DNA from: Oceanicoccus sp. KOV_DT_Chl
GTDB lineage: Bacteria; Pseudomonadota; Gammaproteobacteria; Pseudomonadales; Dasaniaceae
Direction: 5' to 3'
Assembly (NCBI RefSeq): GCF_900120175.1
Contig: NZ_FQLF01000001.1
Coordinates: 1-64,000, forward strand
Length of the DNA: 64,000 nucleotides
Shown here: positions 23,203 to 50,064 of the stretch, piece by piece
Position numbering within the stretch: the stretch's first letter is position 1
How the letters are laid out: every line of letters starts with the position of its first letter
The notes under the pieces: model-generated
What the model was told of the DNA's origin: nothing
The model's database searches: none
The model's input: the letters and a program-made list of their open reading frames with translations, nothing else
Made by a program: the position numbers and the translations under genes

Positions 23203-23937
23203 ATGAAAACAGAATTTTCAAATGATCAATATGATTTTGCTTACCCGGATGGCATTGAAAATCATTGGTGGAGCATGGCTAGAAGTAAGATTATTTCGAA
23301 AGTTATTTCTAAGCATTTATCTCCCGGCGCTCTAATTCTTGAAGTTGGTGCTGGCAAGGGTGTTACGGTCAAGCAGTTAAGAAGTTACGATATTTTTTGT
23401 GATGGTGTGGAGTTAGCTGAGGTGACTCCTTTAAAGGGCGTTGAGGATGTTATGGTGACAGGCCTCAGCGCTGAAGAATTGTCTCAATCCGAGCGAGAAA
23501 AATACGAGGTGATTTTATTACTTGATGTAATAGAACATTTGCCAGATCCTCATGCTTTTATAAAAGCATTAAGGCTGTCCTTCCCCAATGTTTCCACTGT
23601 ATTGATTACTGTTCCGGCCGGTCCAAAAATATGGTCTAATTATGATCAATTTTATGGGCATTACCGACGTTATAATTTGAGTATGCTGGCCCACTTGGTA
23701 GAGTCTCTAGGCGCAATATCATTGGTAAAAAGTTATTTTTTTCACCTGCCTTATCTTCCAGCACGAGTCCTCTCTATTTTTAAGGTTAGCAGAAGCGTTC
23801 GAATTAATGCTCCGCATGGGTTGTTGGTATTTTTAAATAAAATTATTGCTAAATTGATGTTTTTTGATTTTATTTGCATGCCTGCTTGTGTGGCGGGTAC
23901 TAGCGCGATAGTTTGTTTTAAATTTAACAAATTATAA
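23203..23937 (+). CDS. SAM-dependent methyltransferase (Methyltransf_23 type)
   Basis: 244 residues, complete. Motif I ALILEVGAGKGVTVK, motif II VILLLDVIEHLPDP and the family block GHYRRYNLSML are typical of glycan-locus methyltransferases. The C-terminal part has hydrophobic stretches (LPARVLSIF, KIIAKLMFFDFICM) suggesting membrane contact, as expected for a lipid-linked substrate. It overlaps the convergent gene at 23932 by six bases. ATG start. Confidence 0.8.
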   Translation: MKTEFSNDQYDFAYPDGIENHWWSMARSKIISKVISKHLSPGALILEVGAGKGVTVKQLRSYDIFCDGVELAEVTPLKGVEDVMVTGLSAEELSQSEREKYEVILLLDVIEHLPDPHAFIKALRLSFPNVSTVLITVPAGPKIWSNYDQFYGHYRRYNLSMLAHLVESLGAISLVKSYFFHLPYLPARVLSIFKVSRSVRINAPHGLLVFLNKIIAKLMFFDFICMPACVAGTSAIVCFKFNKL

Positions 23938-25581
23938 CTCTGTGATTTTATCTATCTTGCCTTTCGGGCGCCAAATACTTAAATTATATCTTCCGCCGCC
24001 AGGCCTTTTGATTAGCGAAATAGTTAATATATCAGTTTTTTCATAGTATTTTTTTAAGTAGCTGGTGCCATCTATAGCGGGGTCTAGATGCGATGGTGGC
24101 GCTGGTATTTTCGTCGAGCGATCTAGTATTATCAGATCAAATTCTTGATCCTCTATGTTTTTATAAATTCGGCTTATATGTGATTGCCATATAGTGTTTA
24201 GAATGGTGTCTTTTTCAGTTCTTTTAAATATTTCTGGTTTGAAACTGGCGTACATAAAGTAGTTTGTATGGCCATTTTGATATATTGGTTTGTCAGTATT
24301 GAGTATTTGGGTGAGAATAATGGGGGGGCCATATATTTTTTTATTCTCTGACATAATTGCTTCTAACTTCCTCCAGCTTTCAGTGTCAACGGTGAAATCT
24401 TTTGGAAGAACCTCATAGCTTTTGTACAGGGAGAAAACTATAAGGGGTAAGGATATCCATTTGAATTTATCGCTATTCGATATTGTTTTGAAAGATGCTA
24501 TTAGAAAGAAGGGTGACATTATCTGGAAAAGATATGTCATGTTATTTGCAGGGTTCTTGCCTAATATTAAAACTATTATTGATATAGAGCAGGCTAAGCA
24601 AAATAATATATAGTTTGGCTTTCTGGAAAGTAGTGGGGCGTTTATATTTTTAAAATTAAATAGTTGATATTTCTTTTCGTATTTATCTTTACGATATTCA
24701 TTTGTTGTTGTTTTTTCAGTAGATAGTTTGTATATAACTAAAAAAGTAGTCAAGAGTAGCAGTGCTAAGTAATATTCAAAAAATAATGACATCTGCTTTA
24801 GCATGGCTTGATTTGACGAGATTGTGCTTATAACTATTTTAACCGAAAAAAATGTGTTATCTAAAAAGTATGGAGAGGTTTTGTGAATCACAATAAGGCT
24901 AGTTATTATAGACAGCAGTGATAGTATTCCAAAAGCAAGAGCTTTTTTCTTGGATACTGCAATAAATAAATATAGGCTCAGGTACCCTAAACTGGCGATA
25001 AAATATTGTTTACTATAGAAGGCCAGTATGCCGAGAATCAGTGCTATCACTAAACTTCGATTAGAAAAATTGAACTGCCAGGGAATGAAAATGCTGGCTA
25101 GAAAGAAAAACAATCCAGTGCTATTTGGGCTTGCAATTGGGGTGGAATAAAAAAGCAGTGCAGCATAATAGAGTATGGCTGAAGCCAGACTATTAGATGC
25201 GGACCTGCTTTCCTTGTATGTTGCAAAGTAGCAAAGTACACATGATCCCAGGATGAAAATAGCAACTACACTTCGATGTAGTTCTAAGTTATTGCCGAAC
25301 ACAAACGTCAAGGGGGCTACGATTATGTTGTACAGAACGGGGTATACGCTCGCTCTTGAAGGCTGGTTCTTTAATGTATAAGGGTTTTCGCCCGACGCTA
25401 TCGTTGCTGTAACTGTTGGTTGAGCCGCTTCATTATAGTCAAGTGGAATGCTTGCTGAAATCATTTGGAAGTGATTGTAGAGTAAAGCGCAGAGCACTAG
25501 TAAAATGGCTACAAAATAAGCTGTTAGCCGTATTCTTTCGTTGGTCGGCAAGCTCATAGGGTGACTTTGTTTCCTCAGCAT
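23932..25581 (-). CDS. GT-C-like polytopic membrane protein
   Basis: 549 residues, about ten hydrophobic helices, then a soluble periplasmic domain from about residue 400. The first external loop carries IPLDYNEAAQPTVTATIASGENPY; the acidic DYNE is where GT39/GT87-type GT-C enzymes keep their catalytic acid. The YP-containing segment SRASVYPVLYNIIVAP is also typical of these enzymes. I infer a polyprenyl-phosphate-sugar-dependent glycosyltransferase. ATG 25581 gives MLRKQSHP; a second ATG eight codons later is equally possible. Confidence 0.6.
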   Translation of the reverse strand: MLRKQSHPMSLPTNERIRLTAYFVAILLVLCALLYNHFQMISASIPLDYNEAAQPTVTATIASGENPYTLKNQPSRASVYPVLYNIIVAPLTFVFGNNLELHRSVVAIFILGSCVLCYFATYKESRSASNSLASAILYYAALLFYSTPIASPNSTGLFFFLASIFIPWQFNFSNRSLVIALILGILAFYSKQYFIASLGYLSLYLFIAVSKKKALAFGILSLLSIITSLIVIHKTSPYFLDNTFFSVKIVISTISSNQAMLKQMSLFFEYYLALLLLTTFLVIYKLSTEKTTTNEYRKDKYEKKYQLFNFKNINAPLLSRKPNYILFCLACSISIIVLILGKNPANNMTYLFQIMSPFFLIASFKTISNSDKFKWISLPLIVFSLYKSYEVLPKDFTVDTESWRKLEAIMSENKKIYGPPIILTQILNTDKPIYQNGHTNYFMYASFKPEIFKRTEKDTILNTIWQSHISRIYKNIEDQEFDLIILDRSTKIPAPPSHLDPAIDGTSYLKKYYEKTDILTISLIKRPGGGRYNLSIWRPKGKIDKITEL

Positions 25582-25706: not shown

Positions 25707-26693
25707 CTATAGTCTGTCCGCAGAGAGCGCTTCAGCACTGTACTCCCGTGCAAAAATCAACCCCATGGTTAAGCGCGCTATAATTAATCCAATTGAGAGA
25801 GTAAAGCTGGCGGCTAACAACGTCTCTTTGTCGGCGTATCCGCTGAAAAGTGTCACGAATACGAGTTGGCCTGTCCCTAGTCCTGCTGCGGCGATGGGTA
25901 ACGCAGTGACGAATAACAAAACAGAAACATAGACTGCCATTGTGATCCACGGTAGTTGGATGTCGAAGCCTTCCAAAATTGACCAAGTGAGCAGAATGTA
26001 ACTGAATACAAAACCCATGCGCATGGTGACAAGCCATACTAGATACTTGATGGGTAATGTCCGAGCAGCGCTAAAAACATTCAGATGTCGAACCCGGTCA
26101 AATATGCCCATTGCTAGTGGCGCACGCAATACAACGAAGCCTGCGATGATTCCTAGACCGACCATTAGTACTATGCTGACCTGAACACCGATAGCGTTGC
26201 CGCCAGTAAGCATGATACTTATACTTACAAGTATAATGAGGCTGCTCAAATCGAAAAGTCCGATGATAAATACAGCTCCTGCTGCATCTGCAAGGGGTAA
26301 ACCGGCGCGGCGGTGCAATAAGAAGCTGAGCGCACCAGCGCCAATGGCGTAATTAATAAGTCCTAGTAGATAAGACGCTGCTTTTATTTTTGTTGCCATT
26401 GCGAGGGTGATTACAGCTTTTTTTGACTGCGAAACTACACTGACAAGGCATAGGCCCTCAATCAGTAGGCTGACTCCCAGAAATATCAGCAAAGCGGGAA
26501 TAAATAACAATATCTGGTCAACAGTAATTCTTGAGTAAACCGCCGCTATGTCTATACCTGAAAGTGTGTAAGAAAGAAGTGCCGCGCTAACCGTGAAAGG
26601 AAGAATCCAATTTAGCAATTTGCGTATCTGGTTACTTTGCAGCCACTGTCTAGCTGAGCTCATCTCTGTAGCAGGTTGTCGTGGATTGTTCAT
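25707..26693 (-). CDS. AglD / UPF0104-like membrane protein (LPG-synthase transmembrane domain family)
   Basis: 328 residues, about eight membrane helices. Family marks are the N-terminal LLNWILPFTVSAALLSYTL, the VDQILLFIPALLIFLGVSLLIE segment and the later ALPIAAAGLGTGQLVFVTLF, a glycine-rich PxxxGGxG-type loop. Known relatives include the membrane half of MprF and archaeal AglD; many are lipid flippases or lipid-glycosylation factors. It overlaps the desaturase gene upstream by four bases, so translation is coupled and a role in lipid handling is likely. No catalytic residues can be named. Confidence 0.68.
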   Translation of the reverse strand: MNNPRQPATEMSSARQWLQSNQIRKLLNWILPFTVSAALLSYTLSGIDIAAVYSRITVDQILLFIPALLIFLGVSLLIEGLCLVSVVSQSKKAVITLAMATKIKAASYLLGLINYAIGAGALSFLLHRRAGLPLADAAGAVFIIGLFDLSSLIILVSISIMLTGGNAIGVQVSIVLMVGLGIIAGFVVLRAPLAMGIFDRVRHLNVFSAARTLPIKYLVWLVTMRMGFVFSYILLTWSILEGFDIQLPWITMAVYVSVLLFVTALPIAAAGLGTGQLVFVTLFSGYADKETLLAASFTLSIGLIIARLTMGLIFAREYSAEALSADRL

Positions 26694-29631: not shown

Positions 29632-31026
29632 TCAGTGTTTTTCGGTGACAAAGCAAGAGTCCTGGTTACAAAACGGGCGTTCATCTGAGATGTCTTTGGC
29701 TATTGCTATCACTGGTAGGGTCAGGGGAGTATATTTTCCCTCATCTATTATTGTTTGTAGATCCATTAGCACTTTTTTTGGGTTGCTTCCCTGTGGATAT
29801 GATAAGTATCTTGCGTCTCCCGTTTCCTGCCAAATCTGCATTCCGTTCTCTTTCCTGTGGTAAACCTCTTTGATAATGGGGGTTCTTATTTCATAGGTAT
29901 AAATACAGAGTAAAAATGTTAATAGGAGCAAAGTTGCACTGATTTTCAATGCTTGTTCAGATAGAACTTTCAATGTCAGTATGATCATGCAAATCCAGTA
30001 ATTGAAAGCTATAAAACGGTAGCGATCAGCATATACAATTAAGTAATCGTGCCCCCCCCATGACCTTGTCAGCGCGATCACTGCAAGGCTGGCCAAGAGG
30101 AATAGAGAGAAGGCTAACAAAACGTGCTGTTTCCAGGCACCTAAAATGGCCACAGTCAAAAGTATGATTACCCCGCAAATGCCTATTGTGCCAGCAAGTA
30201 AGTGGTTCCCATAGGCGAATGGAGATCCGACTAATTTGAAAAACGCCCAAATATAATTATGTTGGTTGGAGAGAGTGCCGTTCAGTGTTATGACAGCTTC
30301 TAACCTTTTTGTGGGCATGCCACTATAAAATACAACGAGAATTAATAGTCCGGCGGCCAGCCAAATAATATTTTTCCTATCGAGTAAGGATGTTTTTCTA
30401 TCCAGAATGTTTGTCAATAGCAAGGCTAACCCAGCAAAAAAAACTAATTGTCCAGAAGCCAGTGTGAATGTGGAAAAAGCGGCAAAAATAATTGCTAAGG
30501 GAAGCCCCCACCAGTATTTGCAATTTAAAAATATTAGTGAAAGAAAGCTAAAGGTGATGACACTATAGTTGGAAATAACAGTTATTGGCCAAAGTGCTGC
30601 TCTAGTGCAAGCTATTTGGAATAACAATGAGCAAATAATGGCAAGAGTAACCAGACGCTCTGGGGTGAATCTGATTTCTCGGTAATAACAAACGATCAGA
30701 GCAAGGATGTTAATATTTCCAATCATCGTTAGAGTGTAAAAATTAATTTCTCCTGTTATTGCGTAGATTGTCGCGTAAAGTATTCTGTTAGTGACGATTC
30801 TGTGGTCGTTATAGGGTGATAAAAATTGGTTGATTTTTTCAACAAGAGTACTGTCGCTAGAAAATTGAAGAATAAAAGGGATGGCGTCCTGATAGTCATC
30901 ACCCATAGGTATGTTTTGTGCGTACGTTATTATAATAAAGCAATAGCTAGCCGCGGCTATAAAAATTATTGAATAGGCAAGAATTCTTATGAGTGGCGTT
31001 AGTTTTTTTATATTAACGTTTTTCAT
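29632..31026 (-). CDS. GT-C-like polytopic membrane protein
   Basis: 464 residues, about ten helices. After the first helix comes IPMGDDYQDAIPFILQF, then SPYNDHRIVTNRILYATIY: the DDY and HRxxxNR marks are shared with 38155-39717 and, in weaker form, with 19491-21198. The acidic pair in the first periplasmic loop is the usual catalytic site of GT-C enzymes. The short C-terminal soluble part ends in a Cys pair (CNQDSCF). I infer a glycosyltransferase that uses a polyprenyl-phosphate sugar; it stands next to the DprE1/E2 genes. Confidence 0.6.
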   Translation of the reverse strand: MKNVNIKKLTPLIRILAYSIIFIAAASYCFIIITYAQNIPMGDDYQDAIPFILQFSSDSTLVEKINQFLSPYNDHRIVTNRILYATIYAITGEINFYTLTMIGNINILALIVCYYREIRFTPERLVTLAIICSLLFQIACTRAALWPITVISNYSVITFSFLSLIFLNCKYWWGLPLAIIFAAFSTFTLASGQLVFFAGLALLLTNILDRKTSLLDRKNIIWLAAGLLILVVFYSGMPTKRLEAVITLNGTLSNQHNYIWAFFKLVGSPFAYGNHLLAGTIGICGVIILLTVAILGAWKQHVLLAFSLFLLASLAVIALTRSWGGHDYLIVYADRYRFIAFNYWICMIILTLKVLSEQALKISATLLLLTFLLCIYTYEIRTPIIKEVYHRKENGMQIWQETGDARYLSYPQGSNPKKVLMDLQTIIDEGKYTPLTLPVIAIAKDISDERPFCNQDSCFVTEKH

Positions 31027-38154: not shown

Positions 38155-39717
38155 TCATAGTTGTGAGGTTGGGATATAAACCGGAAGCTGTTTGTATTCC
38201 AGTTGATATTGTGTTCCAGACACGCAGAAACTAATATTTTTAGTATCCGGTTTTACAACCATGGTTGAATCTATCTTTAATATACTATATTCAGGTTTTT
38301 GTATTGTTATTGAGGTTGTCAGAGTATTACAATTTCCTGATGAAATTAAACGGGTGGGCAAGTTGTTTTCTGGGATAGCCTTTATTGGGTCATATAGTTT
38401 AATTTCTCGTGCTTGACGCAGCAGTCTGTGTGGATTTTCTGCAAATAGAACAAAGAGCCTTTTGGGGTCTTCATGCTCTAGCCAATAGATAAGGTTCTGT
38501 TGAATTGGCTTGAGCATTTTTTCAACATGAGGTCTTCCCCAGTGCCATGAATATAGGTTGAAAGTTATGGCGAAGAAAAAAATTGCAATAATTAATGGGT
38601 TGCTTAAGGCGGGATTGCCCTTTCTATTTACGTGATTTATAAAGGTACTGAGAAGAAAAGCGCCAAGAACAAGAGAGTAAAAGCTATAACGATTTTGAAA
38701 ATCAATGTCCATAAACGTTAAAACAAAGCGCATATAAGCCGTCAAGGCGATTGTGCCCAGTAAAAATAGACAAAATAGCATGGGCACAGGTTGTTGTTTG
38801 AATTCTCGCTTAAGCAGAAAGCCAGCAAAAATAACTATAATTAACCCTATTAAGGGTTGTATTTTTTCAATCCCAAAGCTGAACCCTGATCCAGTTAATG
38901 AAAGAAACCATATGATGAATTTAACTGGTTCAGATTGAACTAATTGTAGTTGGTTTTCTCGGCCGTCGGTATAGAAAATGGTCGTAATAACTTCGGATGA
39001 GTGATAATCCCTAAAAAATAAAAACGATGTGCCGATTGAAAAAATCAACCATATAGCTAATTGCCGATTGGGGCCATTTCTTAGATAGATTAATATTGCT
39101 CCAAGAGGCAGGATTAGCATGCCATTTCCTAAAGAATAGCAGCACAATAAGCCACTCAGCATTGCAAGAATAAAAGGTACAGGTCGAGTGCGTGTTAGTA
39201 GTATCAGTGTAATGAGTGCAAAGCTGGTTACAGCGAAGTAAGAGATTGCAGTGATCACCCAAAAACTTGCACCCCAATAGGCCAAGTTTAGTATTAGTAG
39301 TGCTCCGGTAAGCATAGCTATTGGGTGCTTAAATATTGCGCCGTGTAGCAGCACAAGAACAATGAGAAAAAAATTAGCAATTAACAAAATATGTTGATAA
39401 TTCAACTCACCAAAAAAAGAGTAATACAGTGTATAGATAGATCGGTTGATAACCGTTCTATGTTCATGGTGTTGCTCAAAAAAAAGTGCCAGTCGCTGCG
39501 AGAAGTCTGTCGCGTTCAGGTATTCCACCATAAACCTTAGGGAGTCACTGTAGTCATCATGTCTGGGGATATTGTTGGAGTGAAGATGGATTTGATATAA
39601 ATAAAATAAGGCTAATAAAAATAGAATACCTAAGCTGAAAAACCTAAAAATAGGAAAATAATCAGTAGTAGTAGATTCTAGAGTGGTGATTTTCAGCAAT
39701 TTAATTTCCTGTTTCAT
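38155..39717 (-). CDS. GT-C-like polytopic membrane protein
   Basis: 520 residues, about ten helices and a periplasmic C-terminal domain from about 400. The loop after the first helix reads IPRHDDYSDSLRFMVEYL and then HHEHRTVINRSIYTLYYSFFGELNYQHI, closely like 29632-31026 (DDY; NDHRIVTNRILYATIYAITGEINFY). The family is not one I can name. The acidic DDY suggests a GT-C active site. It stands alone between the epimerase-led operon and the YidC-fusion gene. Confidence 0.6.
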   Translation of the reverse strand: MKQEIKLLKITTLESTTTDYFPIFRFFSLGILFLLALFYLYQIHLHSNNIPRHDDYSDSLRFMVEYLNATDFSQRLALFFEQHHEHRTVINRSIYTLYYSFFGELNYQHILLIANFFLIVLVLLHGAIFKHPIAMLTGALLILNLAYWGASFWVITAISYFAVTSFALITLILLTRTRPVPFILAMLSGLLCCYSLGNGMLILPLGAILIYLRNGPNRQLAIWLIFSIGTSFLFFRDYHSSEVITTIFYTDGRENQLQLVQSEPVKFIIWFLSLTGSGFSFGIEKIQPLIGLIIVIFAGFLLKREFKQQPVPMLFCLFLLGTIALTAYMRFVLTFMDIDFQNRYSFYSLVLGAFLLSTFINHVNRKGNPALSNPLIIAIFFFAITFNLYSWHWGRPHVEKMLKPIQQNLIYWLEHEDPKRLFVLFAENPHRLLRQAREIKLYDPIKAIPENNLPTRLISSGNCNTLTTSITIQKPEYSILKIDSTMVVKPDTKNISFCVSGTQYQLEYKQLPVYIPTSQL

Positions 39718-39862: not shown

Positions 39863-42800
39863 CTAATATCGTAGCTCTATATTTTGAATTAGAACCACTG
39901 ATGATATTGTTGGGTCCATATCAATTCTAAATGGACCAATAAAGTCCTTTTCAGGGAATTTGATATATATTGAGTTACTACCTTTCGCGATCGAGTAATG
40001 TATCTGTTGAGATTCATGAAATTTTTTCATGTGCCCTGTTTGATAGTAAAAACTGATCGATTGTTCTTGGTTGCTCTTTAGTTTTATATGCAAGATCGGT
40101 TCAGATATTGCACTTTCTGATGCGGCATTAATAGTAATATAAGGGTCTTTGTTTTTAATTGAAATAACTTCAAGACCATTTTTTCCAGCATGCAGGTCCT
40201 TAAGTCCATGTGAGTTGATGACTGAGCGCTCCAAATCGTAGGGATGCTTATTTTTTCTGTTTGAAAATGAGTTTTCGAGCACTTTTTGTAGTGTTTTTGT
40301 TTTCATCTTTCTAAATATAAAATCTTCTGTCCTCTCAATTTCAAAAAGTGAAACATTGAATTCGGCAGGGAGGACCTTTTTCTCAGGCAATGAAAATGCA
40401 AAAAAACCGTCCTGTTCACGAACCTTGCCTGACTTAAAAACTGCTTGGATTTTACCATCTAGTACAGCAGCTATTATTTTGTCGTTTGCAGGGGTATTTC
40501 CATCATAAATAGTTCCGAAATGTGAGATTTCTTCAGGGTTCAGTGATCCGTCAAATGCAGCATTCAGATTGCTGGCAGTGCTTGTTGTTTTTTCATTGAC
40601 CTTGGCATCGATTAAAGCATTGTAGATTGGATTCTCAGTATAATTAACAGCAATCGTATGTGTGGGGCTCTCCTCCGAAAACAGTTGTCTCTTTCTATCT
40701 CGCGATTTCTGGAATAAAGTATCGATGTCAGTGAAGTATTTATTGTACCCGGGTATCATTTCGACCGATGGCGTTTGAAAGTCTCCATTAATTTCACTTA
40801 AGTCACGCCCGATAGATTTCCAGGGGCTGTCAATTCCAGTTACTTTAAGAATGGTAGAGGAAATATCTAAAGTCGTCACAAAAGATGGCTTAACTTTCCC
40901 TGTATTCTGATTAGGGTATTTTATCAATAGTGGCACTGAAATAATGTTTGGCCATGAGCCTTTGTTGTTAGGTGCCCTTCTGCTAGGCCCAATTTTATTA
41001 TAAGACACCCCATGGTCTGCAGTAACTATTATCAAACTTCTATCAAATATTTCTTTTTTCTTCAGCAGTTTGATGAAGTCATGCAGCAAGCTGTCGGCGT
41101 ATGCCGACTGCTGTATGTAATTGTGATATACAACATTTAAGTGTGCCAGCTTTGCATTTTTAACAAAAGGATCATGATCGAGCAATGTGGAAAGTATAGG
41201 TTTGCTATTGCGAATGGAGCGGCCTAGAGATGTTGTAGTGTAGTGTGCGTGTGGGATTTCAAAGTGTAAAAAATTAAACTGACTGCTTACGCCGGCAGTA
41301 TCTACACGTTTCATCCAGTCAATGAATTGCTTCTCGTGCGGATTTGTATGTGGCTTGGTTGATAGTTTGTTTTTATCTTTAAAAAATATGCCAAACCCTT
41401 TCCATGTTTGAGGGATAACCCCGATTTTTTCTTCAATCCAATCTTGGTGGCTTATGATATGTATGTACAAGGTTGAAAGGTCGGAGGCCAATAACCTTTT
41501 ATTTGTATATCTATTGGATATGAAGTCGGCAGGTAAAATGCTACTTAATGCGTCAATAGATCCTTTTGATTGAAATAACTCAATTAAGTTAGCCTTCGGT
41601 GCGAGTCCCTTTTCTTGGATTCGCAAGTTTCCTGAGGCGATACTGGGAACGCTAATAGCCGTTCTCGGGTGTACAGTAAGCGCATTAGGGAAATAATCTG
41701 ACGCCATAGCTAATTCTGCAAACCCGGGGTATCTGATCTCATCCAGTAGGCCTTTCGAGTTTTGGAGTGTTAAGCCGCTGAGCTCATCAAAAATCAATAA
41801 AAAAACAGGGGTTTCATTCATTTTCTCTATTATAGAAGATGATGATTTTTCTGGCTGCTTAAATAAACTGGAGGCAGGAGAAGCAAATATGAAGTGTAAA
41901 ATAACTAGCGGTATTATAAATGATAAGTATGAGATGTTTTTTAATAGTTTCTTTCTTAAGATAATGACAACGGCTGAAGCTGTTAGTACTAAAGACAATA
42001 ATAACAATATGTAAGGTTCGTATTTGGATGAGAAATAGCCATAACCTAATTTGTTTAAGGTATAAAAGATAAACAAACCAAGAAAAATGAATGAGTTTAT
42101 AAAGTCAAATGATGTTGCAATTCCCGCGCGTTTGCTCGCCCAGCGGAGTACGCTTAAAGTAAGAGGTGGGATAATAAAAATTGCTAGCAATATTCCAATA
42201 ATAGAGTTACTTGACAAGCTGTGGGCAGTAAAAAAATTAAACTGGTCACCAAGCACACCTAGTAAAGGAATAAGAATAGCCAGATTTGTCAAAAAAAATA
42301 GGTAACCGTACTCTTCAAAAACATGGACAATGAATGTTTTTTTGAATTCTATCTTGGCTTTTCTTGGCTTTAATTTATCAGTTATAGCAGGTGTAAAATT
42401 TGAAACTAAAGAGAACAGGTTGCTTGTTGTCCAGTAAATAAGTAGTGCAAGAGGAGACGCGTACAGTACAACAAGAAATATCAATGATATAAGTAAGCCT
42501 TGTATAAAGTTTTTTCGACTAAACGTCGGTGCCGTGATTAATGCGATAACATTTACCAGTGTCATCACAAATGGCATCAAGTGAGCACGACCGAATAAAA
42601 GGGTGTCAGGCTTCCCCAAATCACCTATATACGGCACCATACTCCCTGCCAACTGGGGAAAATCAGAGAGCATGAAGTAGGCCGCAATAAAGAAAGGCAG
42701 TTGCACGCCCAAGCCGGCAAGAGAGCGTATAGTAAAGACGGGGTGGTAACCGTATCTTGTGTATAGTCTTTGAATGGCTTCGTGTCGCTGTGCTGCTTTA

Positions 42801-43021
42801 TATTTTAGTTTTATTGCTGCGATTTGCGGTGCCAAAACTGACTCTATTTCAACTTGATTGGTAACTGCTCGGCTTGCATATTTTTCTAACGGTTTAGTTG
42901 CAAGGCGCACCGCAATGGCGAGTAACACAATACCCAACAAATAAGAGTTTGTTATACTGCTTAAGATAATAAAAATAGTTTCTAGAACAGATTCAATCGG
43001 TGCAAGTGTATACTGGTACAT
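39863..43021 (-). CDS. YidC/Oxa1-core membrane domain fused to an LtaS/sulfatase-type domain
   Basis: 1052 residues, three parts. (1) Residues about 1-235 match the conserved core of YidC/Oxa1 insertases: the first core helix carries the hydrophilic-groove Arg (AIAVRLATKPLEK, Arg39), then a cytosolic hairpin (APQIAAIKLKY, LYTRYGYHPVF), LGVQLPFFIAAYFML and two more helices ending LLIYWTTSNLFSLV. There is no YidC P1 domain. (2) About 235-385: five or six extra helices. (3) About 390-700: alkaline-phosphatase/sulfatase superfamily, with metal ligands in LLIFDELSG, nucleophile-region VHPRTAISVPS, and IIVTADHGVSYN. A beta-rich tail follows. LtaS/OpgB-type enzymes in this superfamily move phosphoglycerol. 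Adjacent (22 bases) to a CDP-glycerol-type transferase. Complete frame. Confidence 0.85.
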   Translation of the reverse strand: MYQYTLAPIESVLETIFIILSSITNSYLLGIVLLAIAVRLATKPLEKYASRAVTNQVEIESVLAPQIAAIKLKYKAAQRHEAIQRLYTRYGYHPVFTIRSLAGLGVQLPFFIAAYFMLSDFPQLAGSMVPYIGDLGKPDTLLFGRAHLMPFVMTLVNVIALITAPTFSRKNFIQGLLISLIFLVVLYASPLALLIYWTTSNLFSLVSNFTPAITDKLKPRKAKIEFKKTFIVHVFEEYGYLFFLTNLAILIPLLGVLGDQFNFFTAHSLSSNSIIGILLAIFIIPPLTLSVLRWASKRAGIATSFDFINSFIFLGLFIFYTLNKLGYGYFSSKYEPYILLLLSLVLTASAVVIILRKKLLKNISYLSFIIPLVILHFIFASPASSLFKQPEKSSSSIIEKMNETPVFLLIFDELSGLTLQNSKGLLDEIRYPGFAELAMASDYFPNALTVHPRTAISVPSIASGNLRIQEKGLAPKANLIELFQSKGSIDALSSILPADFISNRYTNKRLLASDLSTLYIHIISHQDWIEEKIGVIPQTWKGFGIFFKDKNKLSTKPHTNPHEKQFIDWMKRVDTAGVSSQFNFLHFEIPHAHYTTTSLGRSIRNSKPILSTLLDHDPFVKNAKLAHLNVVYHNYIQQSAYADSLLHDFIKLLKKKEIFDRSLIIVTADHGVSYNKIGPSRRAPNNKGSWPNIISVPLLIKYPNQNTGKVKPSFVTTLDISSTILKVTGIDSPWKSIGRDLSEINGDFQTPSVEMIPGYNKYFTDIDTLFQKSRDRKRQLFSEESPTHTIAVNYTENPIYNALIDAKVNEKTTSTASNLNAAFDGSLNPEEISHFGTIYDGNTPANDKIIAAVLDGKIQAVFKSGKVREQDGFFAFSLPEKKVLPAEFNVSLFEIERTEDFIFRKMKTKTLQKVLENSFSNRKNKHPYDLERSVINSHGLKDLHAGKNGLEVISIKNKDPYITINAASESAISEPILHIKLKSNQEQSISFYYQTGHMKKFHESQQIHYSIAKGSNSIYIKFPEKDFIGPFRIDMDPTISSVVLIQNIELRY

Positions 43022-43042: not shown

Positions 43043-44437
43043 TCAGATCGAAGTAGTCTGATTTGGCTGCTTACGAATATCACCTATCTCATTCCGCAAG
43101 ACGTCCATTTGGTGCTTGAGGGGTTGCTCAGTGGCTGTCATTGATAGCAGATCGGTCTGCTGCTTTAGGTACGCAGCAATAGCAACGGATGAGCTGCCAT
43201 TATTAGCAACATATTTATTTCTCAGTCCCTCCATGCTTTCTGGTGTGAATTGCTTTATTGTTTCTTCTGCAATTTGGTTAATTAAATGAATTTTATCTGA
43301 ATTAACGACCACGCCAATTTTTTCAGCCATTGTGTCGGCCCATGTTTCTGTCATGTAGTCGCTTTCATAGATTTGGCGGCTTTGCCGCGAGATCGGCAAC
43401 GTGATGACAGGTTTTTGGTATAAAAAAGCAAAATCAAAGCGAATAGATGATGCATCCGATATAAGAATGTCTGCCTGAGACATGGCCTGAGTTCCAAAAA
43501 CATTGTCATCCCAGGTCACATTGCTTAGGTTTTTGGTGTCAGCGATCCATCTGTCAATAGCTTCAGGCTCAAATATATAAGAATGAGGGTGTAAGCGGAC
43601 AATTACGCGATATTTTGCCTCGGCGAGGGTTTTGACAAAGTTTGTTCCATACTCTGAAAAGCATCCTTTCGCTCCCCATGAAGGAGCAACAAGAACCGTT
43701 ATGTATGGCTGCTCTTTTATTTCGGCCGGCATTGCATATTCATATTTTTGACGTTCCAGATCATCAAGGTAGGGCAGCCCTGCAACAACCAGTTCCTTTT
43801 TTTTCAGATTTCTGGCACTTTCTACTAGTCTTATTGAACGCTCTTCGTGTGGACCTACTATTAAAACAGAGTCATAAAAATCAAGGCTTCCTTTGTGATA
43901 GCAAGAAAGGTCGACCATTGAATGAAATACATGCACCAGATTTATGACACCTGAAGGACGTTGCACCGGATAACCTGCTGAACCTATGTTCGGTGTGGTA
44001 CTCAGCATGACAGGGGATTTAATGTTAGCTATTTTTGCAAAACCTAAGCGCCCCTTGGGCAGCCGTCTGGAATGCATGAACGTGTTGTCAATCTCAAGCC
44101 CCGGATCGTATACATCAAGGGTGATATAGCGAAAATGTATTTTTTGCGAAATAAGTTCTTCAATAATAGGCCGAAAAGTTGTCCAGTAGGTTTTGCCTTC
44201 ACTAAAAATTACCGGCATGCATTGCTCATCGCTGCCACACTTTTCATGCTTGGATCCATCTGATGAGCGGGTAAGTAGCTTATAAAAAACAGACTTTATA
44301 AAAAAAATTATTGAGCCAAAAATTGCAATAAAAAATGAGGCGATGGCATTCCCTGACGCGGGATCCAGATAAGCATAGGCGGTTTCAGAATTCATCAAGA
44401 CGATTAATAAGAGTAGCACTGCAAATTTGTTATTCAT
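43043..44437 (-). CDS. CDP-glycerol glycerophosphotransferase-like protein (TagB/TagF type)
   Basis: 464 residues. The N terminus has a signal-like helix, then YLDPASGNAIASFFIAIFG with a second helix. The soluble part is GT-B-like: VLVAPSWGAKGCF, VIVRLHPHSYIFEP, DILISDASSIRFDFAFLYQKPVI; these RLHPH and SDxSS blocks are the CDP-glycerol:poly(glycerophosphate) transferase marks, with conserved His and Asp. Gram-positive relatives build teichoic acid; Gram-negative relatives add glycerol phosphate to capsules. It precedes the YidC-sulfatase-fold fusion by 22 bases, so the two probably act together. No CDP-glycerol synthesis gene (tagD) is in the window. Confidence 0.82.
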   Translation of the reverse strand: MNNKFAVLLLLIVLMNSETAYAYLDPASGNAIASFFIAIFGSIIFFIKSVFYKLLTRSSDGSKHEKCGSDEQCMPVIFSEGKTYWTTFRPIIEELISQKIHFRYITLDVYDPGLEIDNTFMHSRRLPKGRLGFAKIANIKSPVMLSTTPNIGSAGYPVQRPSGVINLVHVFHSMVDLSCYHKGSLDFYDSVLIVGPHEERSIRLVESARNLKKKELVVAGLPYLDDLERQKYEYAMPAEIKEQPYITVLVAPSWGAKGCFSEYGTNFVKTLAEAKYRVIVRLHPHSYIFEPEAIDRWIADTKNLSNVTWDDNVFGTQAMSQADILISDASSIRFDFAFLYQKPVITLPISRQSRQIYESDYMTETWADTMAEKIGVVVNSDKIHLINQIAEETIKQFTPESMEGLRNKYVANNGSSSVAIAAYLKQQTDLLSMTATEQPLKHQMDVLRNEIGDIRKQPNQTTSI

Positions 44438-46295: not shown

Positions 46296-47237
46296 ATGAC
46301 TCGACATTGTGTATTGGTTCCTTTCTACGGCCGTGTTTCCCAAGTCGAAAACTGTGTGAGAAAATTGCTGAGTGAGGGGTTGCCTGATACATATATTGTT
46401 CTTATCAATGATGGTACGCCTTCTTCAGAGCTTGGTACTACTCTTGATGAGTTGTTGGAAAATGAATCGCTGGTTATGTTACATCATACTGGGAATATGG
46501 GCGTAGCTGCAGCTCGGAATACAGGTGTTGAGTGGGCAAGAGCGCATCAATGCGAAATAGTTATCATGATTGATAGTGACTGTATCCCTTCAGAAAGTTT
46601 TATTAAGCAGCATTTGGGATTACATGCTCGCTATGCCGACGTAGCTTGCTTTGGTGGCGGCATTTTGGGTGTGGGTTCCACCTTGTGGGCAAGGCTGGAT
46701 AATCTTATGTCTTGGGTTCATTCTGTACCCTACGGTGAGATTCGAAAGGTGTCAGCTCTTTACCACTTACCTACTACTAATTTTAGTATCAAGCTTTCGA
46801 GTGTTGACCCTACATTGCCTATGTTTGAGTCAAGGTTGAAGACCGGAGAGGACGCGTTATTGATTCGTCAATTGAGGCGGTCAGGGGCGTCGGTTATGTT
46901 TTCACCTGATCCTATTATTTATCATCTTGATCGTAGTGGCTTGGTTGATGTGTTGAAGCATCATTATGAGTGGGGGCATCATCAGTATTTTATTCAGCTT
47001 GGTGGTGACTTTTCAGAAATCACGATGAAACCCTGGTATCGAGTGCTGTTTCTATTGGCGTTTCTGCCTTTTTTGCCGGTCTTTGCAATGTTGGGTGCGG
47101 TACTAAATATAGCCCCTTGGTTGAAACATAAGCCTGTTTATCTGGCCTACTTTCCTTTGGTTTATATGGTATGGATGTGCAAGTCTGTTGCAGTAGGTGA
47201 GGCAGCGTTACGACCGCATCGTTGTCTTAGGCTTTAG
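46296..47237 (+). CDS. GT2 glycosyltransferase with C-terminal membrane segments
   Basis: 313 residues from ATG 46296 (a GTG at 46278 and other upstream codons are in frame but overlap the radical SAM gene). GT-A marks: CVLVPFYGRVSQVENC, VLINDGTPSSELG, GNMGVAAARNTGVEWA, IMIDSDCIPS and TGEDALLIRQLRRSGA. The C terminus has one or two hydrophobic stretches (VLFLLAFLPFLPVFAMLGAV). Probable membrane-associated sugar transferase working with the radical SAM protein. Its 3' end overlaps the convergent gene at 47234 by four bases. Confidence 0.83.
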   Translation: MTRHCVLVPFYGRVSQVENCVRKLLSEGLPDTYIVLINDGTPSSELGTTLDELLENESLVMLHHTGNMGVAAARNTGVEWARAHQCEIVIMIDSDCIPSESFIKQHLGLHARYADVACFGGGILGVGSTLWARLDNLMSWVHSVPYGEIRKVSALYHLPTTNFSIKLSSVDPTLPMFESRLKTGEDALLIRQLRRSGASVMFSPDPIIYHLDRSGLVDVLKHHYEWGHHQYFIQLGGDFSEITMKPWYRVLFLLAFLPFLPVFAMLGAVLNIAPWLKHKPVYLAYFPLVYMVWMCKSVAVGEAALRPHRCLRL

Positions 47238-50064
47238 CTTGATTTAGAGCTGGTTGCTGACAGAATTTTAAAGCTCTGTTCTCCTGAAATTATCATTTCC
47301 GATATTAGGGGCGATTTATACAATGCCCATAAGATACTGATCCTTATTCTATAGTGATGTACGCCAGGGCGTAGGGTAAATGTTAAGTGGGTTTTATCCT
47401 CAAATGTAAGTTGAATGTTTTGTTCAATTTCTGAGGATACTTGCAAATTAAGAAAGCAGGGAAGGGTTGGGCAGTTTATGCCACTGTCATTATATATTCG
47501 ATATTCAGTCGAGGTGATATTTTCTTGAGACACATTTATTTGGGTTGATTCGGTTGTGTCGGTGGTACCGCCAAGAGCCCATATTGCAGGGATATGACGA
47601 AAATCTATAAGCTGTTTTAAATAATTATTGGTGAGCCGTTCGAGATCGATGCCTTCTTTATATTGACTGAACTTTTCTACACGGTCATAGCACGCTTGTT
47701 GGTCTCCTACTAGGGACCAGATATCAATGTTATTGATACGAGCGCAGGGTGCGAAATGCTTATAGATGTATTCAGCTATAGAAAATGATCTCAATGCATT
47801 GTCTATCCCATCGAGGTGATCCATCTTTGTGTTTTGTCTAAACAAGACATATGGCAGCCTCCCTGCCTGTCGTAATTGTTCCAGCTCTTTTATAGTATGA
47901 AGCTGTAATTTATTTGTACTCTGGTAAACCGTTTCCAGAATATAATTAGGAGCTTGTACATCACTCAATGCGTAAAGTAATGGCGCGTTGCTGAAGTCAT
48001 AGAATGTTTGTTCAGGGTTGAGGTTTAGATTCATGAACTGAACGAAATCGTCGTACTTTGTAACCTGATTATCCAGCCGCTGCTGTTCTGGTTTGGTATG
48101 TATTTTGTGAGTAAAGTCTACCGATGGAAACTCCCAGCGAGTTTGATGATGCTCAAGTGCGGCGATGAGCATATTCTCTGTTTTAGGGATCGCGATATTA
48201 GTCAATGCAATATAAAGTGCTATGACTGGAGCTAAGAATTTTGCATTGAGTCTGCAGCGAAGCCAAATGATGAGGAGAGCCACCAGACCGGTAATTAAAT
48301 ATAGATAATTATTAAATAGACCTTCAATGAGTGAGTGCCGATGCAGCGAACGTGTAGACATCATCAGTGTGCAGCTAGAAAGATAGATACTTAATAAAAA
48401 TAAGTATAAATGGTTATTGTTGACACTTTTTAATAATAGGCAGCGCACTAAATAAGCTAAAAACACGCAGGTAATACCAGGTAGGATAACGAGCTGCATT
48501 AACGATCTATAGTCTATCGCTTTATAAAAATTCACATAAGAGACTATGGGTATTTGTTTCGAAAGATATTCAGCCATTATATCTAGTTTGGGTGCTAAAT
48601 CCGTATTGCTGGTAATGATCGCGAGCACCGCAGCGGCCAGAAGGCTGAATATCCAGAAAGTCCTGTTGTTTTTGAGCGATCTTAATTTTTCTTTTTCTTG
48701 CCAGCGCTCTGCTAAGAAAATCACCAGATTCGAGGTTACAACTACCAGCCCAAAATCCATTCTCCATAATATTATGGCGGCGGTCAGAAGCCACTGCCAG
48801 GCCCACCAGCTGCTTTTTACGTCTTTATGTTGATAATTAATGATGTGGATGGCGGGCAAAAGTAACGGAGCGTAATAGGGGGTAATAAATGAAAGCTGGG
48901 AAGAAGCCATATCAGAAAAAATGCATGCCCAGGTGCAATTAATTTAGCCATAAATGTGAACATCAAGGCTGCGTATATTCCTCTCATCAACCAGCCATTA
49001 AAATAGCCGTCTCCCCAAATCAGCGACTCAAGTAATTCCCCCTCATTCAGCCACCAGTAAATACCATGTGGAAGAGCGTCAAATAACCCGTGAACGGGCA
49101 TGTAGTCAATAAATGGCCATTGGTTGTGACTACTCAATTGCTGCAAGGGTAATATTTTTTCTCCTAAATGAAACAAATCGAGGAACTGATAGCTGATCGT
49201 CTGCCGATATTCCGGCAAGATATAGGTTGTTATAAGGACGCTCATTCCCAGAAAGTAGATCGATGGGGCGGTGGGGCGACTTTTTAATCCATAGATAGAA
49301 ATTAATAACAAGGAGAGTAAACCGAAAATACTAGCGGTTGATACTTCAGGAAAATCATGCCTGCTCAAGCTATAGCATACTTCCAGGCTGGCTATGTATA
49401 TTAGTGGGCATAGTACTGCCCAGCGTGTTATTAAGGACCACAGGCTAGGAAAATAATCAGGAGCATCTTGCTTGGCTATAGTTTTATTGATGGCTAATAA
49501 TCCGGCTGTGAAGCCTAGCCATAGCAAAATCATTGAATAGCCCGTTGCCGTTGTAAAAAGCAAAGATATCTGTGTAGTAAGTTGCCAGGCAGGAAGAACC
49601 GTCTGGAAGTAACTGGCAAGTGGCTTTATGTTGCTTTTTCGTATTTGAAAGCAGTAAATCCAGATCAATGCCAGTAGGCTTGCAAGTAGTAGGTTATCCA
49701 GAAATAACGGGTTTTCTTGATAGGCAGAGATAAGAATTAGATTGCCCACAGCGCAGGCGGATATAGTCCATAACAATGAAGGTGCGCCTGTTCTGATTGA
49801 TGGCTTTTCAACTAAAGGAATAAATAGAAGACAAAAACAACTGAGTGAGACTCCGGCAATAATCGCCAGAATATACAGGTTGTTTCTATATATGGGGTTT
49901 ACATTTTCTGCAATGCTAATGCCGATAATCTGGTTATTCAGGAGCTCAGGTGTTGGTGTTTGTTTTAGGCATAGGATCAGCGATGCTAAAGTAATAGCGA
50001 AAAAAATAAATTGCCATGCTAGTATTGCTTTTTTTTTGGCTTGGCTTTCAAGGGCTGTATGCAT
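47234..50064 (-). CDS. Very large polytopic membrane protein, one frame break
   Basis: About 944 residues when joined. The frames 48817-50064 and 47234-48910 overlap, and one extra base in the G5 run (plus strand 48878-48882) turns HLLPP into a continuous HLLPPYYAPLLLPAIHI. About 15 to 17 membrane helices occupy residues 1-650 and a soluble domain follows (about 650-944), with PTLPCFLNLQVSSEIEQN and a beta-rich end. I do not recognise the family. The layout (many helices, then a beta-rich periplasmic domain) recalls large GT-C or arabinosyltransferase-type proteins, but no diagnostic acidic loop was found. It lies beside the second UbiA gene. Confidence 0.6.

Follow-up and report, generated by a model that had tools for sequence, protein, structure and literature searches.

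A non-canonical YidC paralogue fused to a predicted LtaS-type membrane transferase, and its possible role in surface tailoring in Oceanicoccus sp. KOV_DT_Chl

The first 64,000 nucleotides of contig NZ_FQLF01000001.1 from Oceanicoccus sp. KOV_DT_Chl (the window; the fusion gene and its upstream partner gene lie on its minus strand) contain, at positions 39863–43021, a single unbroken open reading frame (ORF) with an ATG start, which encodes a protein of 1052 residues, P0001, carrying a YidC/Oxa1 core and an alkaline-phosphatase-superfamily (AP) domain on one chain. We tentatively read P0001 as a non-canonical YidC paralogue joined to a membrane enzyme that is akin to LtaS, EptA and OpgB and transfers phosphoryl or phosphonyl groups. 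In this reading, which we favour with slightly less than even confidence when lipid delivery and the partner are included, P0001 would form a surface-tailoring module with the product of the gene directly upstream, a relative of the CDP-glycerol (cytidine diphosphate glycerol) transferases, and its YidC part would deliver a membrane-bound polar head group to the periplasmic phosphotransferase.

Both halves of the protein are identified in Pfam and among PDB sequences. In Pfam, 60KD_IMP (PF02096) covers residues 27–209 (E = 6.7e-21; 75.4 bits, cut-off 35) and Sulfatase (PF00884) covers residues 434–730 (E = 7e-16; 58.8 bits, cut-off 25), and a search of PDB sequences matches residues 18–209 to YidC2 (3wo6; 6.8e-8) and residues 610–742 to LtaS (2w5q; 2.1e-7). 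The N-terminal part of a profile built from five such fusions matches seven PDB YidC sequences with E-values from 4.5e-15 (5mg3, an E. coli-type YidC) to 1.9e-13; that for 3wo6 is 1.8e-14. The initial annotation had proposed a YidC core at the N-terminus, devoid of the P1 domain, and an AP-fold domain with FDELSG, HPRTAISVPS and Asp-His-Gly motifs on the same chain; these assignments are borne out, only about 26 residues preceding the start of the 60KD_IMP match. From the Pfam match, the profile alignment to YidC structures and hydropathy, the core is assigned to residues 1–210 (42392–43021). Arg39 (42905–42907) aligns to the conserved Arg column of the first core helix in the profile alignment to PDB YidC, a column that we take to be that of the Arg/Lys in the hydrophilic groove, R366 in E. 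coli and R72 in B. halodurans YidC.

By hydropathy, the YidC part has four hydrophobic windows, and five more follow at residues 239–381. The last two core helices of YidC are contiguous, so the four windows would represent five helices, and P0001 is read as having ten helices in all, five of the core and five of the enzyme. A low-confidence AlphaFold2 run gives separate helices at 169–188 and 190–214; with a two-row alignment of the window protein and its homologue from Candidatus Nitrotoga sp. BS, AlphaFold2 reaches a mean predicted local distance difference test score of only 31.7 on the full chain and 42.3 on the YidC part. Two loops rich in Lys and Arg, at 35–99 (11 basic versus 4 acidic residues) and 196–238 (7 versus 4), fit the cytosolic side by the positive-inside rule. 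With family knowledge as the guide for both topology and transferase chemistry, the N-terminus would lie outside, the five core helices would end inside and the five further helices would end outside again, which would place the catalytic domain in the periplasm.

The five segments, assigned to residues 237–385 (41867–42313), constitute the membrane part of the enzyme itself, since relatives without YidC (loci L035, L036 and L037) align with P0001 across both these segments and the AP domain. By this comparison the YidC core is an added module of P0001 and not the enzyme's membrane anchor, and the proposal of the initial annotation that YidC serves as the membrane part of the enzyme is not supported in that form. 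Members of the LtaS/EptA/OpgB family have some five membrane helices ahead of an AP-fold domain in the periplasm, and P0001 resembles LtaS, EptA, OpgB/MdoB and PbgA/YejM in this arrangement as well as in the Thr nucleophile and the Asp-His motif, but differs from them in having a YidC core in front and a C-terminal region behind. The latter (residues 761–1052; 39866–40741) is the least conserved part and has no Pfam match at E 0.01.

The AP domain is assigned to residues 400–760 (40742–41824) from the PF00884 match and that to LtaS 2w5q, and is read as being of the phosphotransferase type. FDELSG contributes Asp412/Glu413, Thr454 (41660–41662) lies within HPRTAISVPS, and Asp669-His670-Gly671 (41009–41017) follows; from family knowledge we presume that Asp412/Glu413 and the Asp and His of the last motif are metal ligands and that Thr454 is the nucleophile. 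Across 16 AP-type domains, from the fusions and from other genes, Asp412 and Asp669-His670 are kept in all 16, and the nucleophile column holds Thr in 13, Ser in three (L038a, L059 and L067) and Cys in none; Thr454 and Asp669-His670-Gly671 are present in all five fusions. LtaS, EptA and OpgB are Thr-nucleophile transferases of the AP superfamily. The Thr column, the retained Asp and Asp-His and the lack of Cys suggest an active domain that belongs with these Thr-nucleophile transferases. A weak alignment segment (4.2 bits) from a profile search of the PDB places Thr454 at the Cys of the C-x-P-x-R motif of a phosphonate monoester hydrolase. A formylglycine sulfatase was considered and rejected, the site reading T-A-I-S-V instead of the C/S-x-P-x-R signature, as was an LtaS equivalog (NF053595; 40.2 bits, cut-off 970). 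The separate AP-type gene of L059 carries a YejM-type DUF3413.

The fusion recurs. Candidatus Nitrotoga sp. BS encodes a full-length homologue of P0001 with 62% identity and the same gene order, and identity between the two is 75% in the YidC core, 66% in the five-segment part, 63% in the AP domain and 51% in the C-terminal region. A class-level scan of 369 genomes gave 14 matches at 1e-12 in 13 genomes, including three further fusions, in genomes G339 (830 residues), G358 (941 residues) and G565 (959 residues); the AP domain of the G358 protein falls short of the Pfam threshold (22.8 bits, cut-off 25), whereas a related-domain profile built without it gives 122 bits. The profile check across genomes envisaged in the initial annotation thus yields five fusions, the window's own included, and the layout is not unique to this genome. 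Given the E-values of the two halves and the full-length homologue in another organism, the joining of YidC and AP domains appears to be more than chance. The notion that two functionally unrelated genes were fused by accident or by misassembly might draw on the rarity of the architecture, in that neither the 244 genomes of the same order nor the best matches listed for 398 genomes of the phylum hold a full-length match to P0001 beyond the window's own. It is refuted by the recurrence, with the Nitrotoga homologue in the same gene order and three further fusions, and we regard it as extremely improbable. Searched with a profile of the YidC part, the phylum set returned two paralogues from the window's genome, the other proteins listed being canonical-like by size and score. 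In a plasmid collection P0001 matches two records (16% and 14% of its length covered), the L057 fusion matches five (at most 23%), the separate YidC paralogue of L063 matches 19 (at most 55%), and the partner has no match; no relative was found in the viral contigs scanned.

A canonical YidC is encoded elsewhere in the window's genome, and P0001 scores 67.5 bits with the NCBIfam model for canonical YidC (TIGR03592), below its cut-off of 84.3. In a tree of 40 YidC cores, the 24 presumed canonical sequences cluster to the exclusion of P0001 (100/100), the five fusions form a group of their own (91/56; 94% of bootstrap trees), and 11 separate YidC paralogues fall outside the canonical group; the finer branching is uncertain because of long branches (L062, L064 and L056). 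The canonical set derives from 27 loci, from which L003 (the window itself), L020 (an AP-type match) and L023 (where the chosen ORF was unmatched) were removed; the paralogues of G567 and G469 were left out of the tree. The groove column holds Lys or Arg in 24 of 24 canonical proteins, 10 of 11 separate paralogues and two of five fusions, and Gln107, Pro109, Tyr196 and Trp197 are kept in all 16 paralogues compared. P0001 thus resembles the YidC/Oxa1 insertases in its core profile match, the Arg39 column, a Lys/Arg-rich cytosolic loop and the conserved Gln, Pro and Tyr-Trp, but differs from them in lacking P1, in falling outside the canonical group and in the fused enzyme; the groove charge is moreover lost in three of the five fusions. 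A 1436-residue ORF in G434 (L065:5008–9318, minus strand) joins a YidC core (68.9 bits) to rhodanese-like and phosphoenolpyruvate (PEP)-synthase-like parts, both named by eye; with other fusion partners it is not the same architecture and is not counted here.

Directly upstream of the fusion gene, 21 bp away, lies the gene of the presumed partner (43043–44437), a CDP-glycerol glycerophosphotransferase-like (Glyphos_transf) protein of 464 residues that shares with the TagF/TarF-type CDP-glycerol glycerophosphotransferases a PF04464 match above cut-off (42.4 bits, cut-off 22.1). A Glyphos_transf gene is found directly upstream of the fusion also in L040, L055 and L057, with a 4-bp ORF overlap in L040 and L057. 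By hydropathy and motif, the start of the window partner (44282–44437) consists of a hydrophobic segment, a YLDPASG motif and a second hydrophobic segment, and partner-type genes of all five fusion genomes (the window, L040, L055, L057 and L066) begin with a YxDPx(S/T)G motif and at least one hydrophobic segment, compared with none of ten separate-type partners, whose first 100 residues show neither the motif nor a segment above the hydropathy threshold. A fused YidC and a predicted membrane-bound partner accordingly co-occur in this small set. In L061 the YxDPx(S/T)G motif forms a gene of its own, of 102 residues.

Proximity to such a transferase extends to YidC paralogues that are not fused. 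For the 14 non-canonical YidC matches of the class scan, a homologue of the partner lies within 1 kb in eight, within 2 kb in nine and within 10 kb in ten, and the three paralogues from the order scan (G068, G030 and G031) all have one in the stretch covered. Among 47 genomes with a PF04464 match, that match lies within 10 kb of six of nine paralogous and none of 47 canonical YidC genes (Fisher p = 2.6e-6), or of four of seven and none of 46 once the window's genome is set aside (p = 1.2e-4), p-values that serve only as a guide given related genomes and broken contigs. In this comparison the best YidC of each genome was taken as canonical, and the different fusion of G434 was kept among the nine paralogues.

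Separate genes for a transferase-like protein, a YidC paralogue and an AP-type protein share one stretch in L034, L035, L038, L059 and L063, so that what is fused in some genomes is found as separate neighbours in others; the AP-type genes of these stretches match Pfam, that of L034 below the cut-off. Separate AP-type genes stand close to separate YidC paralogues in L034, L035, L038, L059, L061 and L063, with weaker matches in L064, L069 and L070. Some of these loci supplied sequences for the partner and AP profiles, and their own members match by construction; independent matches are those of L059, L060, L067, L069 and L070 for the partner, and of L034, L056, L064, L067, L069 and L070 for the AP domain, where L070 scores 17 bits. 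The L059 partner (genome G607) has no Pfam match, but scores 393 bits with a partner profile built without it. Beside a second YidC paralogue of the window's genome, the AP-type gene (L034:11007–13090, minus strand), whose Pfam match is under cut-off, is split into two ORFs in different frames, through either gene decay or a sequencing error. The YidC paralogues of L061 (9407–12899) and L062 (9007–11081) have no Glyphos_transf neighbour and adjoin a 486-residue gene with a methyltransferase match under cut-off and a 471-residue gene with no Pfam match. Elsewhere in the window, long ORFs at 38155–39717, 47234–48910, 48817–50064, 23932–25581 and 29632–31026 have no Pfam match at the limits used (E 0.01 or 0.001), and a lysyl-phosphatidylglycerol-synthase-type membrane domain (25707–26693, minus strand) lies by a fatty-acid desaturase and methyltransferases.

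The gene context also bears on the group that might be transferred. In the window's genome, L034 has a PEP mutase with a cytidylyltransferase domain, a thiamine pyrophosphate (TPP) enzyme and an iron alcohol dehydrogenase beside the module of YidC, Glyphos_transf and AP genes; L057 has a PEP mutase, a TPP enzyme, a cytidylyltransferase and LicD beside it, and phosphonate genes by the module in L035 and L063 were judged by likeness of ORF starts only. With the model for glycerol-3-phosphate cytidylyltransferase (TIGR01518), the best score in the window's genome (G000) is 52.3 bits, at the PEP-mutase gene, and that in the Nitrotoga genome is 132.9 bits. From these scores and the phosphonate genes by the module, the donor in the window's genome may be a phosphonate, and that in Nitrotoga is perhaps CDP-glycerol. 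A PEP mutase with a cytidylyltransferase domain is likewise a feature of the phosphonyl-tailoring (Pnt) clusters described in PMC6697681; in contrast to the loci here, the words YidC, insertase, sulfatase and glycerophosphotransferase do not occur in its main text.

Considering these data together, we suggest that fusion and partner probably cooperate in the tailoring of cell-surface glycans. The cytosolic partner would load a polar group activated by CMP (cytidine monophosphate) or CDP, glycerol phosphate or, given the phosphonate genes, a phosphonate, onto a membrane carrier; the YidC part would let the head group of the carrier cross to the periplasmic side along its hydrophilic, lipid-open groove, possibly by lipid scrambling; and the AP domain would take up the group in a phospho-Thr intermediate and hand it to a periplasmic glycan. 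The data themselves show the domain content, the conserved catalytic motifs, how the YidC parts are related, the gene neighbourhood and the occurrence of fused and separate versions; the movement of a lipid head group by the YidC part, like the identity of group and acceptor, is our conjecture. We favour head-group delivery because the parts span the membrane, with a presumed CMP/CDP-group transferase inside, a YidC paralogue within and a Thr-nucleophile transferase outside, so that handing over a membrane-bound polar group would be the simplest link between them, and because lipid scrambling by YidC has been reported: lipids were scrambled in proteoliposomes by E. coli YidC, and in simulation by members of the Oxa1 family (PMC10491306), and a 2025 review describes YidC as presumed to act in this way (PMC7618853). 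The suggestion in the initial annotation that the groove holds a lipid substrate may be right, and gains outside support from the same in vitro scrambling by E. coli YidC (PMC10491306). In the parts of PMC10491306 consulted, scrambling insertases are not linked to a fused enzyme or to surface modification, in which they differ from the case described here.

Several observations weigh against this account. The fusions are rare and scattered across the genomes searched, occurring in one of 83 genomes of the family of G565 and one of 100 of the family of the Nitrotoga genome (the order, class, phylum and family sets partly overlap, and the family-level sets around G339 and G358 hold only one and four genomes, respectively). 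The groove residue is Arg in the window protein and in Nitrotoga, and Asn, Asn and Thr in the other three fusions, so the joint conservation of Arg39 and the catalytic residues anticipated in the initial annotation is not observed. No transferase-like gene was found within 10 kb of four of the 14 non-canonical YidC genes (G358, G437, G382 and G350); for G358 the search covered 12 kb of a 22.6-kb contig and a partner homologue lies on another contig (L066), and for G437 the YidC gene is on a 4.4-kb contig while the partner and an AP-type gene are at the start of another (L067). L036 and L037 have an AP-type relative with neither YidC paralogue nor partner in the stretch covered, and none of nine genomes exceeds the TIGR01518 cut-off of 165.4. 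Canonical YidC and other proteins might, moreover, already provide enough ordinary scrambling.

An alternative, serious but unlikely in our judgement, is that the YidC paralogue is devoted to inserting or folding its partners, either the helices of the transferase or the membrane segments of the Glyphos_transf protein, and that fusion keeps the client adjacent to this insertase or chaperone. Inserting membrane segments of proteins is the known role of YidC, 10 of 11 separate paralogues retain the groove charge, as does P0001, and the hydrophobic segments and YxDPx(S/T)G motif of the partner-type genes in all five fusion genomes would offer a client. The window's genome already has a canonical YidC, however, the groove charge is gone in three of five fusions, the ten separate-type partners that lack motif and segment in their first 100 residues have a paralogue nearby all the same, and an insertase fused in cis would presumably find its own enzyme half hard to insert.

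It is also rather unlikely that the YidC part transports nothing and serves as a passive anchor or scaffold, holding the cytosolic transferase close to the periplasmic enzyme. The enzyme's own membrane part, the variable groove charge, and a fusion and adjacency that would fit complex formation are all compatible with such a role; yet of all parts the YidC core differs least between the two close fusions, and Gln107, Pro109, Tyr196 and Trp197 are invariant beyond the need of a mere anchor. Glyphos_transf proteins include TagF-type polymerases and the YidC groove accepts hydrophilic peptide stretches, from which one could picture a groove that passes a growing hydrophilic poly-polyol phosphate made by the Glyphos_transf protein, with the AP domain trimming or attaching the polymer. 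The 15 partners measured are short (371–472 residues), and that of the window reaches only 18.2 bits with the TarF model, against a cut-off of 550, which makes this improbable.

In keeping with the initial annotation, which knew of no characterised protein with this layout, no description of a YidC and AP-type (sulfatase/phosphotransferase) architecture was found among the papers listed, as judged by titles and abstract openings and mostly outside subscription journals. Head-group delivery by P0001 would bear on two questions. The biosynthetic steps of phosphonate surface tailoring are called enigmatic in PMC6697681, and the loci described here, with their phosphonate genes, may be relevant to them. 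The other question is whether cells make use of the scrambling reported in vitro for insertases of the Oxa1 superfamily (PMC10491306), for which a YidC paralogue that both fusion and gene order link to a transferase of the lipid-donor type would be a natural test case. More broadly, and with greater doubt than we attach to the module itself, a branch of the YidC/Oxa1 family may have left protein insertion to become a dedicated mover of lipid-bound or polymeric polar groups for glycan tailoring, fused in some lineages to the periplasmic transferase that it serves.

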